In this document: piece after piece, positions 7,237-12,498 of the stretch
How positions within the stretch are numbered: position 1 is the first letter of the stretch
How the letters are laid out: every line of letters begins with the position of its first letter
NCBI RefSeq assembly: GCF_007558725.1
Contig: NZ_VLPL01000012.1
Coordinates: 1-64,000, forward strand
Direction of reading: 5' to 3'
Source: Fluviicola chungangensis
GTDB taxonomy: Bacteria > Bacteroidota > Bacteroidia > Flavobacteriales_D > Crocinitomicaceae
Length of the DNA: 64,000 bases
Translations under genes and position numbers: made by a program
Notes under the pieces: generated by a model
The model's database searches: none
Told to the model about the DNA's origin: nothing
What the model saw: only the letters and a program-made list of their open reading frames with translations

Positions 7237-9063
7237 TCAATTGAATTTAGAATGGCGTTCATCAATTCCAAATTGAATAAACAAACCGAACCCTTTTTCT
7301 CCATTTGTATAGGAGTAGCTGGCATCCAGTTGCTGTATAAAAGCACTGATAATCTCCACTCCCGTGGAAGACTGTTCCAAAAATTCGATTTCTCCGTTAT
7401 ACCCGACTCCATCATCTTTTACCAGAAGTTCGTAATTCAGGCTTTTTTCAGGATTGTTCTTCAACTCAATCTCAATCACCCCTTCCGTTCGATCGGAAAA
7501 TGCATGCTTGTATGAGTTGGATAGCAACTCGCACATGATCAAACCGACAGGGACCGCATAATCAATTGCCAAATTGATCTTCTCCACATTTACTTTTACT
7601 TCAATGTGCTTGTTGTAACTGGAAAACGATTCTCCCATCTGGGAAATCAATTTATTTAAATAATTCCCCATTTCCACATATGCAGAATCATTATTTAAAT
7701 GAAGCTGGTTATGAATCAGGGCAATGGCCCGGATCCGTTCTTTACCTTCTTCTAAAATGCGGAGTGCTTCCGGATCGCGTACATTCCGTGATTGAAGGTT
7801 TAAAATACTTGAAACGACCTGTAAATTGTTTTTTACCCGGTGATGGATCTCTTTCAAAAGGCTTTCCTTCATCGCCAGTGAATTCGAGATTTCTTTGTTC
7901 TTGTCGTCAATTTCCTCTTTTTGTAATTGAAGCACCCTGTTTGAATCACTTTTTTGACGAATAAACAAATACGAGATACTGATAATGACCACGATACTCA
8001 TCAGGATCAGAATAAGGATCAGACGAAGCTGCTGGTTTTTACTGCGTTCCTCTTCCAATAAGTACTGGTTCGATTCTGTTTGAAAGTCCTTTTCCAATTC
8101 AAATACCAGGTTCTCACTTCGAAGGTTTTCCAGCAAATCGTCGACCTCGTTTCGTTTAATTGAAAAATAATAGGAGGAATCCTGTTTTTTTTTCAATTCG
8201 TAATAGTGCTCCAGGCATCCGTAAACCTGGAATAAATCCCGCAGTTCCGTCGCTTTTTCATTTTTTAGAATCGTATCGAAATAAGGTTTTGCAAGATCCA
8301 ATTGATCCGTATACAGGTAAATCTCACCCAAACTGGCATTGGCATATTGTTCTGCATACTTCCAGTGATTGAATTGAGCCAGTTTTTTAGCAAATCGAAA
8401 CTCCTGGAGTGCTTTTCCGATGTAGTTACTGAAAAAATAAACCTGTCCGGCCGAATTTGCAACCTGGAAACGATACGCGGCACTCATTTTCCCGGCTAAT
8501 TTTTTCGCTTCCTCAATATGCATGAATGCTTTTCCAAACTCTCCTTTCTCGTTATAACAATTACAAAGTACCAGGTGGCATTGAAGTAAAAGGTATGTGT
8601 CAGATTTAGAAGATTCGTTCAGTATTTCGGATGCTTTTTTTACCAGGATATCATAATCGTGTCCCAAACTTTCATAAACAGCACTGTATAGATCCAGGTA
8701 TAATTTATCCTGCTTTTTGACTTTAAAAAAAAACTGGAATCGTTTTGCTTTATTAATTTCAAACTTAACACGTGCATAATCTCCGTAAGAACTGAAGAAC
8801 TTGATCTTTTTGATCGTCAGTCGATAGTTAATCTCAGCATTGTGAAAGTCTTTGTATTTGTGATCGAGGTAACGAAGTGATTCATTTGCCTTGGAGATGT
8901 CAACGATCATTTCCTCTTGCAATTTCTGAATTTCCCGGTTAAATTTTTTGTGATCATAATCCTTTTGCTGGGAAAATCCCAAACAGGAACAATGAATTAA
9001 CAGAAAGGCTAAAATCCGGTGTTTTTGCTTAATTAAGAGTAGTCTTTCTGAAAATCGAACCAT
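7237..9063 (-). CDS. TPR-containing sensor histidine kinase (HisKA_2 type)
   Basis: I start at the ATG at 9063 (608 residues), which gives a clean signal peptide ending GFSQ; the longer frame begins with TTG at 9117. Residues about 40-335 are helical TPR-like repeats in the periplasm, followed by a strong membrane span (about 345-367, LRLILILILMSIVVII), a short coiled coil, and the phospho-acceptor segment KEIHHRVKNN (His near 405), typical of the HisKA_2 class. The HATPase domain follows with an N box (CELLSNSYKHAF) and a G1 box (KDDGVGYNG). No response regulator is adjacent. Kinases of this type often pair with LytTR-type regulators encoded elsewhere. Confidence 0.87.
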   Translation of the reverse strand: MVRFSERLLLIKQKHRILAFLLIHCSCLGFSQQKDYDHKKFNREIQKLQEEMIVDISKANESLRYLDHKYKDFHNAEINYRLTIKKIKFFSSYGDYARVKFEINKAKRFQFFFKVKKQDKLYLDLYSAVYESLGHDYDILVKKASEILNESSKSDTYLLLQCHLVLCNCYNEKGEFGKAFMHIEEAKKLAGKMSAAYRFQVANSAGQVYFFSNYIGKALQEFRFAKKLAQFNHWKYAEQYANASLGEIYLYTDQLDLAKPYFDTILKNEKATELRDLFQVYGCLEHYYELKKKQDSSYYFSIKRNEVDDLLENLRSENLVFELEKDFQTESNQYLLEEERSKNQQLRLILILILMSIVVIISISYLFIRQKSDSNRVLQLQKEEIDDKNKEISNSLAMKESLLKEIHHRVKNNLQVVSSILNLQSRNVRDPEALRILEEGKERIRAIALIHNQLHLNNDSAYVEMGNYLNKLISQMGESFSSYNKHIEVKVNVEKINLAIDYAVPVGLIMCELLSNSYKHAFSDRTEGVIEIELKNNPEKSLNYELLVKDDGVGYNGEIEFLEQSSTGVEIISAFIQQLDASYSYTNGEKGFGLFIQFGIDERHSKFN

Positions 9064-10669: not shown

Positions 10670-11749
10670 TTAAGGGTTTAACGGTTTAAAGTCCGGATTA
10701 GTTACAAAATTATAATCTGTTAACGTTAATAAAAAGGCTTTCAACTGATTGCGCTGTTCAGAGTTCAATTGGACCCCGCCAACACTTGCAAACTCGATCA
10801 GCGGGTCAATAGTTGCCGAGTGCTGAATTCCAGTGGAATAATGTTCAATAACATCATCCAGAGTTGCAAATCTTCCATCGTGCATATAAGGTGCAGAAAG
10901 CGCAATGTTTCTGAGTGTCGGGACCTTGAATTTTCCATTGTCATTTGGGTTCTGCGTAATTACACCTCTTCCCAAATCCGAAAAGACAGCATCCAATCCG
11001 TTGTTTGAAAATTTCTGGACCTGCATCAAGGTTCCGTTATGGCAATGGAAACAATCTGCTCCGTTCAAACTTTTAAACAAATCAAAACCTGCCCATTCTT
11101 CAGATGTAACGGAATTTTTAATCGCCAGCTCAGAAGAAGTCAGCGGAATATTGTTTGCAAACTTATACATCACATCGTATTTCGATTCCCCGGAAATCAT
11201 CGTCCGCAAAAACTGAGCGAGTGCCTTCGCTACATGACTTGAATCAAATTCCACCACCCCAAAAGCTTTGAAAAATTGGTTCCGGTATACTCCATCGGTT
11301 TTTAAACGCGAAATCGCATCCTTCCATTGCAAGTGCATTTCAACCGGATTCGGGACCGGTTCCAAAATTTGTTCTTCCAGTGTATGCGCTCTTCCATCCC
11401 AAAAGAAACTGGTTTGCCATCCCAAATTAACCAACGCCATTGCATTTCTTGTACCTAAAGTTCCATTGACTCCCTGTGAGAATTGGTTCCCATCTGAAAA
11501 AGAGGCATCCGGTGCATGACAGGATCCGCAGGAAATGGTTTGATTCAATGACAATCGCTTTTCATAAAAAAGCATTCTTCCCAGTAAAACACCTTCTTCG
11601 GTCATCGGGTTATCTGCAGGAATGTTCATTTGAGGAAAATGGCTCGGGATTTTCAAGGTATACGGAGTTGGGTCGTAGCCGACCTTTTCCTTTGTGCACG
11701 CCAAAAAGAAAACCAATAAAAGCAATATCACAGCAAAGAACCGATTCAT
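10670..11749 (-). CDS. Di-haem cytochrome c peroxidase / MauG family lipoprotein, MbnH-like
   Basis: Two c-type haem sites are visible, CGSCH (74-78) and CFHCH (233-237), the layout of bacterial di-haem peroxidases and MauG. A lipobox (FFLAC, Cys18) predicts a lipoprotein facing the periplasm. The start overlaps the stop of the upstream MbnP-like gene by 4 bases (ATGA), so the two are translationally coupled. In methanotrophs the equivalent enzyme, MbnH, oxidises a tryptophan of MbnP to kynurenine to make a copper site; the same role here is an inference from family and gene pairing. The alternative is a plain H2O2-reducing peroxidase. Length (359) is within the family range. Confidence 0.87.
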   Translation of the reverse strand: MNRFFAVILLLLVFFLACTKEKVGYDPTPYTLKIPSHFPQMNIPADNPMTEEGVLLGRMLFYEKRLSLNQTISCGSCHAPDASFSDGNQFSQGVNGTLGTRNAMALVNLGWQTSFFWDGRAHTLEEQILEPVPNPVEMHLQWKDAISRLKTDGVYRNQFFKAFGVVEFDSSHVAKALAQFLRTMISGESKYDVMYKFANNIPLTSSELAIKNSVTSEEWAGFDLFKSLNGADCFHCHNGTLMQVQKFSNNGLDAVFSDLGRGVITQNPNDNGKFKVPTLRNIALSAPYMHDGRFATLDDVIEHYSTGIQHSATIDPLIEFASVGGVQLNSEQRNQLKAFLLTLTDYNFVTNPDFKPLNP

Positions 11750-12498
11750 AGTGCGTTGATGGATGCAGCGAAATTTTGCCGCGCTTTTTCAGTTAAAACA
11801 CTTTGAGAAGCCATGCTGTGTGTGGTAAATTCTGTTTTTACATCCATTTCGTTCCCGGAGTTTTCGAAGAAATTCTTCATATCAATCTTTAGCCAGGCTT
11901 CATTCAGGGTTGAATTTACCGCCAACCATGTGAGATTGGTAATAGTTTTAGTTGTGTAAAATGGATCCGTTCCGACATGGTACACCAGGTTGTGATCACA
12001 ATTCGTGATTCCATCCACAATCGTATCCACTTTTGCTTCCACTTTAAAAAAGATGTATCCCGGATTCCAATCCCAGTGCATATCATTGGCAATGGCAATG
12101 TTCAAAGGATTATTCGAAGGAAAAAGACTTGGATCGTTGTGATTGACTGAACTGGGAACACCGATCCCAAATTGAATGGATGAAGGATTGGAAACAACCT
12201 GGTTTGCCTGGAAGATCAAAGTGCCCGTTTCCCTGAAATCGAATAATGCGGCATCTTTCAGAACATTTCCATTTGATTCGATTCCCGTGAAATAAGCTTT
12301 CAACTCAATAAACTCAATTTTATATCCATTACTCATCGTGTAAACAGAGTCCAAAACCAAATTTTCACTTCCAAACAGGGGTTTCATGGATAACTTGCTT
12401 TGCTGAACCGGAGGCGTATCAACAGCATCATCCTTCTTTTTTTTACAGGAGAACAAGACAATACAAATGAGCAACGCAAGAATCGGAAAATATTTCAC
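11746..12498 (-). CDS. MbnP-like copper-binding lipoprotein
   Basis: A 250-residue lipoprotein (lipobox LFSC, Cys18) of the MbnP family. The segment NDMHWDWNPGYIFFKVE (138-154) holds the conserved His141-Trp142-x-Trp144 cluster; in characterised MbnP a tryptophan is converted to kynurenine and contributes to Cu(I) binding. Further candidate ligands are His120 (SVNHND) and the later CDHNLVYHVG. It initiates at GTG (12498), with no better upstream ATG. A perfect -7 element (12513-12520) lies 14 bases upstream. It is first in a two-gene operon with the di-haem enzyme. Copper binding and modification are inferred from family knowledge. Confidence 0.82.
   Translation of the reverse strand: MKYFPILALLICIVLFSCKKKKDDAVDTPPVQQSKLSMKPLFGSENLVLDSVYTMSNGYKIEFIELKAYFTGIESNGNVLKDAALFDFRETGTLIFQANQVVSNPSSIQFGIGVPSSVNHNDPSLFPSNNPLNIAIANDMHWDWNPGYIFFKVEAKVDTIVDGITNCDHNLVYHVGTDPFYTTKTITNLTWLAVNSTLNEAWLKIDMKNFFENSGNEMDVKTEFTTHSMASQSVLTEKARQNFAASINAL

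Follow-up and report, generated by a model that had tools for sequence, protein, structure and literature searches.

The window analysed here, a stretch of 64,000 nucleotides from Fluviicola chungangensis, carries on its minus strand two lipoprotein genes that share four bases. The first gene, at 11746..12498, starts with GTG and encodes an MbnP-like lipoprotein of 250 aa, and the second, at 10670..11749, encodes an MbnH-like di-haem lipoprotein of 359 aa, both frames being read from the sequence. The stop codon of the former and the start codon of the latter lie within an ATGA at 11746..11749, so the 4-base overlap between two lipoprotein genes claimed in the original prediction is borne out to the base. 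Both N-termini are lipoprotein-like, reading LFSC18 in the MbnP-like protein and FLAC18 in the di-haem protein, and by eye the start codon at the place of the GTG is ATG in the related loci L070-L075. The first lipoprotein contains the predicted HWDW segment within M-H-W-D-W at residues 140-144, where Met140 is encoded at 12079..12081, Trp142 at 12073..12075 and Trp144 at 12067..12069, all on the minus strand. The second contains the two predicted CxxCH haem sites, CGSCH and CFHCH, at residues 74-78 (11516..11530, minus strand) and 233-237 (11039..11053, minus strand).

Against the Pfam family PF20243 (MbnP) the first protein scores 79.4 bits, over the cut-off of 27, while against the NCBIfam equivalog TIGR04052 it reaches 39.6 bits, below the cut-off of 140, as do all of the Bacteroidota MbnPs scanned (19/19, range 25.1-57.5 bits). 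A match to PF09491 (17.3 bits, below cut-off) was treated as chance. Searching the PDB with the single sequence returned chance matches only, and a profile was therefore needed; one built from 41 sequences recovered 7l6g, the MbnP of Methylosinus trichosporium, at an E value of 0.00097, with the M-x-W-x-W segment and a downstream His-Val-Gly in register. In this alignment Met140 falls on the Met of the 7l6g segment GMAWNW, Trp142 on the first Trp of WNW, and His174 (11977..11979, minus strand) on the His of VHVGS. The predicted structure (pLDDT 92.1) leads to the same entry, for among the 50 Foldseek matches listed of 428 only the six 7l6g chains have E <= 0.001, and 195 residues of the model align to 7l6g at 2.8 A with a Z score of 17.0, compared with 3.5 for the entry ranked second. 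The assignment to MbnP is thus upheld by Pfam, by the profile search of the PDB and by the predicted structure.

The partner scores 184.6 bits against Pfam PF03150 (CCP_MauG), over the cut-off of 25.6, and has both CxxCH sites. Its top match in NCBIfam is the MbnH family TIGR04039, at 256.3 bits and below the cut-off of 362.85, as are the Bacteroidota MbnH-like proteins scanned (5/5), and the MauG family TIGR03791 follows with 165.9 bits. Since both lipoproteins stay below their NCBIfam cut-offs, neither is filed as an equivalog: the first belongs to Pfam MbnP and not to TIGR04052, and the second is an MbnH-nearest subgroup of CCP_MauG and not TIGR04039. The nearest PDB entry of the di-haem protein, by sequence and by structure alike, is the MbnH 6e1c, and its predicted structure (pLDDT 85.7) gives Z scores of 32.0 against 6e1c, 26.4 against MacA and 24.4 against MauG. 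In the column of Tyr304 (10838..10840, minus strand), 6e1c and the window family have Tyr and the Shewanella CcP 3o5c has Met. Judging from this alignment, we propose Tyr304 as the axial ligand of a six-coordinate haem of the MauG/MbnH type, taking the place of the Met; a passage of PMC6405878 describes Tyr-His ligation for the haem of MauG and BthA.

These results weigh directly on whether the locus might instead hold an ordinary peroxide-detoxifying di-haem cytochrome c peroxidase beside an unrelated lipoprotein. The fold is indeed common to peroxidases, as the MacA score illustrates, and so is PF03150. However, 6e1c is ahead by 5.6 Z units, a Tyr stands where the peroxidase has its axial Met, an unrelated lipoprotein is ruled out by the Pfam membership of the partner, and the coupling and co-variation with MbnP described below also argue against a lone peroxidase. 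The family of the partner, the axial Tyr and the best structure match lead us to reject this alternative, which we regard as highly improbable. The profile search against the MbnP and MbnH families, set beforehand as a check, favours both over CcpA and an unrelated lipoprotein, and the MbnH assignment stands on Pfam, on the PDB profile search and on a predicted structure nearest to 6e1c.

The presumed site and the pairing were then followed through related genomes. Of 395 genomes sampled across the phylum, 97 contain PF20243, and of 100 sampled in the family, 84 contain matches to the window MbnP, including 9/9 of the genus; by MbnP identity the nearest named loci are those of a Flavobacteriales MAG (81%) and a Fluviicola MAG (79%). 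The motif was counted in the 60 best-scoring loci, 30 of them phylum-wide by the Pfam profile and 30 family-wide by the window protein (the window included), a choice that leans towards typical members. Met-x-Trp-x-Trp is kept in 59 of these 60, the exception being L036 with Leu for Met, and both Trp142 and Trp144 in all 60. His174 is present in all 59 sequences of an alignment that combined 58 of the loci with a second pair from the same genome, and by eye in L022 and L036, the two loci left out of that alignment, which brings it to all 60 loci. A frame with two CxxCH sites adjoins the MbnP match in 60/60 of these loci, and a di-haem frame does so in 18 of 20 further stretches chosen by hand, the two exceptions being L152, where there is no such frame, and L155, where it is found on the opposite strand at a distance of ~1 kb.

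The family set comprised 81 loci (the window and 80 others). In 73 of them the first parsing returned the two genes next to each other on one strand, and 53 of these 73 pairs share 1 or 4 bases. L076, L104 and L107 are pairs too, missed by the parsing pattern, while in L070 an assembly gap falls inside MbnH and in L086, L136, L137 and L146 the contig ends inside the next same-strand frame. Leaving out L104, L070 and the four contig-end loci gave an alignment of 75 pairs, in which the constancy of M-x-W-x-W and CxxCH proves nothing, because both were used to find or parse the loci. Not selected for, and nonetheless kept in 75/75, are the lipid Cys of both proteins, Trp191 of MbnP, and Trp111, Trp117 and Tyr304 of MbnH; His120 and His227 of MbnP are each kept in 74/75. 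In the wider set Tyr304 is kept in 58 of 59, with Phe in one. The distance matrices of MbnP and MbnH have a correlation of 0.80, to which shared ancestry contributes, where shuffling gave at most 0.14. Because the Pfam scores are so far above their cut-offs (79.4 bits vs 27 and 184.6 vs 25.6) and the pairing recurs, we do not consider the pair a product of chance.

A few relatives depart from the motif, and M-x-W-x-W is not universal in PF20243. MbnP relatives that lie beside a di-haem gene and do not have the usual Met occur at L036:1372-2199 (Leu) and L169:6577-7227 (Asn), and at L160:7295-8826, also beside a di-haem gene, there is a W-V-P-W segment without Met together with a tandem MbnP copy without the motif. 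The L036, L169 and L160 variants are natural tests of the Met ligand. At L159:6030-8874, beside a divergent helicase-like gene, a single MbnP gene precedes a tandem of two MbnH-like genes, one of them with Phe for the Tyr in the axial place.

In the window the pair is flanked by a gene judged helicase-like by eye and by one for a 477-aa protein without a Pfam match. The same neighbours recur across the family: the upstream gene belongs to a divergent helicase-like cluster in 67 of 70 loci and the downstream gene to the cluster of the 477-aa protein in 68 of 73. A WYL-type gene comes next in 56 of 71 family loci, and in the window a histidine kinase sits between the 477-aa gene and the WYL-type gene. 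We recognised no copper gene beside the pair at this family-wide conserved locus. MbnB (TIGR04159) has no match anywhere in the genome of the window, which measures 4.27 Mb in 19 contigs, and the only matches there to the copper TonB receptor TIGR01778 are fragments scoring below the cut-off within a single 798-aa frame of a different contig. A methanobactin setting, which the original prediction had said to be absent, is accordingly rejected, and we know of no link between this bacterial family and methane oxidation or methanobactin. With its neighbours fixed and no MbnB in the genome, the pair therefore looks stand-alone, inherited in place and outside any copper island. The claim of a stand-alone pair holds for the locus in that no methanobactin context is found there; it has to be qualified for the genome, which harbours a second MbnP/MbnH pair.

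The single Cu(I) of M. trichosporium MbnP reportedly has a His, a Met, solvent and a kynurenine in its vicinity, and MbnH reportedly converts the first WxW tryptophan into this kynurenine; these results are attributed to Manesis and colleagues (PNAS 2021), whose paper is said to include a neighbourhood analysis as well. We propose copper for the window protein mainly because Met140, Trp142 and His174 fit this site. The original prediction had left the target open between Trp142 and Trp144; going by the M. trichosporium site, we take Trp142 to be the Trp that would be oxidised, and have narrowed the claim to this residue. The pathway that we envision begins with the export of both proteins as lipoproteins. 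Peroxide would then take the di-haem enzyme, by way of the His/Tyr-ligated haem, to a high-valent, MauG-like state, in which it would oxidise Trp142 of the partner MbnP to kynurenine. The remodelled MbnP could bind a single Cu(I) through Met140 and His174 and, placed at the outer membrane or perhaps the cell surface, might act as a copper collector or buffer.

It could also be argued that the chemistry between MbnH and MbnP is real and that the modified Trp site binds a different metal, senses redox state or forms a structural cross-link. Such a role would be in keeping with a conserved locus at which no copper gene was recognised, with the two NCBIfam equivalog cut-offs that were missed, with the two extra His residues (120 and 227) kept in nearly all of the clade, and with the replacement of the Met in L036 and L169. 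Yet the Met, the WxW and the His align with those of a solved copper protein, 7l6g, and are kept in 59-60/60 loci, and the sole strong fold match among the Foldseek matches listed is MbnP itself. We consider a role other than copper rather unlikely. The reading that we prefer, and regard as probable, is a translationally coupled, stand-alone MbnP/MbnH pair with a Cu(I) site built around an MbnH-made kynurenine; of this reading, the gene structure, the family, the fold, the coupling, the fixed locus and the conservation of the presumed ligands and the axial Tyr were observed, and the use of peroxide, the kynurenine, the copper, the surface location and the role of the pair are what we infer.

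The original prediction had placed the pair on the periplasmic face of the membrane. A lipobox is present in both proteins, and to that extent the claim stands; the periplasmic location itself has become doubtful, because MbnP bears an acidic tail that resembles an export signal. Two or more acidic residues occur within six positions after the lipid Cys in 56/75 of the family MbnPs and 10/75 of the MbnHs, and K-(D/E)2 occurs in the same interval in 19/75 and 0/75, respectively. For Capnocytophaga a passage of PMC5080379 gives K-(D/E)2 as the minimal surface-export signal, notes that its position matters and puts the optimum at C-X-K-(D/E)2-X. The window MbnP reads CKKKKDDAVD, so that K-D-D is present and begins two positions further from the Cys than in the optimum of C. 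canimorsus (PMC5080379). This tail hints at a display of MbnP on the cell surface, in which case MbnH would possibly act before MbnP is exported.

The second MbnP/MbnH pair of the genome lies on contig 15 (L007:10274-11958). After it come a gene for a type IX-tailed YHYH protein (L007 8980-10269) and a frame that by eye is similar (7509-8888). The whole operon spans L007:7509-13182 and comprises an ECF sigma factor, a 144-aa protein, MbnP, MbnH, the YHYH protein and the similar frame. Sigma factor, ~145-aa protein, MbnP, MbnH and type IX-tailed YHYH protein come in this order in L161 too, and in L157, which has one additional small frame. The arrangement looks like a regulated metal-response operon. 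The ~145-aa protein was left without a name, its likeness to metal resistance proteins reaching an E value of only about 0.1.

An MbnH-like gene without MbnP is found on contig 1 of the same genome (L008:5994-6965). At what by eye seems to be the same place in relatives, L154 and L158 have MbnP and MbnH and L152 has MbnP alone (L152:7473-8432). The comparison of L008 with L152, in two genomes of one genus, suggests reciprocal loss. Longer MbnP forms of 317-373 aa carry a C-terminal type IX sorting domain, which in 7 of the 8 scanned scored above the cut-off of TIGR04183 (L150:7208-8161, L151:6950-8071, L153:6661-7632, L154:7122-8093, L155:7368-8327, L156:7242-8261 and L158:6635-7609), the tail of the L152 MbnP scoring 19.5 against a cut-off of 23. 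An MbnH-type gene adjoins on the same strand in 6 of these 7, the exception being L155, and from their tails these MbnPs would probably be a secreted form.

Two further observations concern the surroundings of such genes. A protein that starts with ACD(V/I)CGC after its signal peptide adjoins MbnP/MbnH in three genomes, two of them of one genus (L162:7692-8588, L163:8878-9888 and L164:8960-9961), with no Pfam match in L162 and L164. A fourth CCP_MauG gene of the genome, on contig 12 (L009:6025-7925), is split into separate frames of 522 aa and 104 aa and is possibly frameshifted, its C-terminal part lying in the separate frame.

As a kind, the pair is not new, because stand-alone pairs already appear in the literature of 2013: a passage of PMC3621798 speaks of the MbnP/MbnH pair as conserved 'far beyond' the methanobactin producers. 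MbnPH-like genes in other copper operons are described in a passage of PMC9426467, and in view of these two descriptions a stand-alone pair of the sort that the original prediction proposed cannot count as new. As late as 2022, mbnPH was listed in a passage of PMC9601215 among genes of as-yet-unknown role. Among the literature matches listed, from a search that mostly covered papers outside subscription, we found no paper on a Bacteroidota MbnP, a type IX-tailed MbnP or the sigma-factor operon. What is added here is the second pair, the orphan MbnH, the type IX-tailed MbnP in relatives and the export-signal-like tail of MbnP. If the preferred reading is true, a copper site made by post-translational conversion of Trp to kynurenine would be a trait widely kept in one bacterial family; cultured Fluviicola strains exist. 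One could go further and envision that the Crocinitomicaceae have tiered kynurenine copper sites, namely a surface MbnP at the fixed locus, a pair with an ECF sigma factor and a type IX YHYH protein, and in relatives a type IX-exported MbnP, all made by MbnH and serving as extracellular, protein-based copper collectors without methanobactin, a speculation that we offer with the odds against it.

Among known systems, the MopE/SACCP and CorA/CorB proteins of methanotrophs are alike in having a kynurenine-assisted Cu(I) site and a co-transcribed di-haem protein (PMC3912023, in the passages at hand). The same source describes CorA and MopE as surface proteins, and the logic of di-haem partner, kynurenine, Cu(I) and surface is so close that the window protein could be thought a relative of these and not of MbnP. 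Their copper site, however, consists of two His and the kynurenine (PMC3912023), unlike the Met/His proposed here, only 7l6g was matched by fold at E <= 0.001 among the matches listed, and neither MopE nor CorA is found among the 50 Foldseek matches listed of 428, so that we give this descent next to no chance. The MauG of methylamine dehydrogenase resembles the window enzyme in being a di-haem protein that oxidises a Trp of a partner protein and, according to a passage of PMC6405878, in its Tyr-His haem. The window enzyme nevertheless scores lower to MauG than to MbnH both in bits and in Z, and the methylamine dehydrogenase family is absent among the four other window neighbours scanned. Closer is the MbnH of 6e1c, entered as a 'MauG-like protein associated with microbial copper homeostasis', which is the top match in sequence and fold and shares the Tyr in the axial place; the window protein differs from it in being a lipoprotein, in staying below the TIGR04039 cut-off and in having 38% identity over the structural alignment. 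The MbnP of M. trichosporium OB3b (7l6g) shares with the window protein its fold, the aligned M-x-W-x-W and HVG segments and a di-haem partner gene, and the differences lie in the lipoprotein nature of the window protein, an identity of 15-17%, a score below TIGR04052, a genome without MbnB, and the four-Cys motif mentioned in the PDB name of 7l6g, where the window MbnP past its lipid Cys18 has only Cys167.
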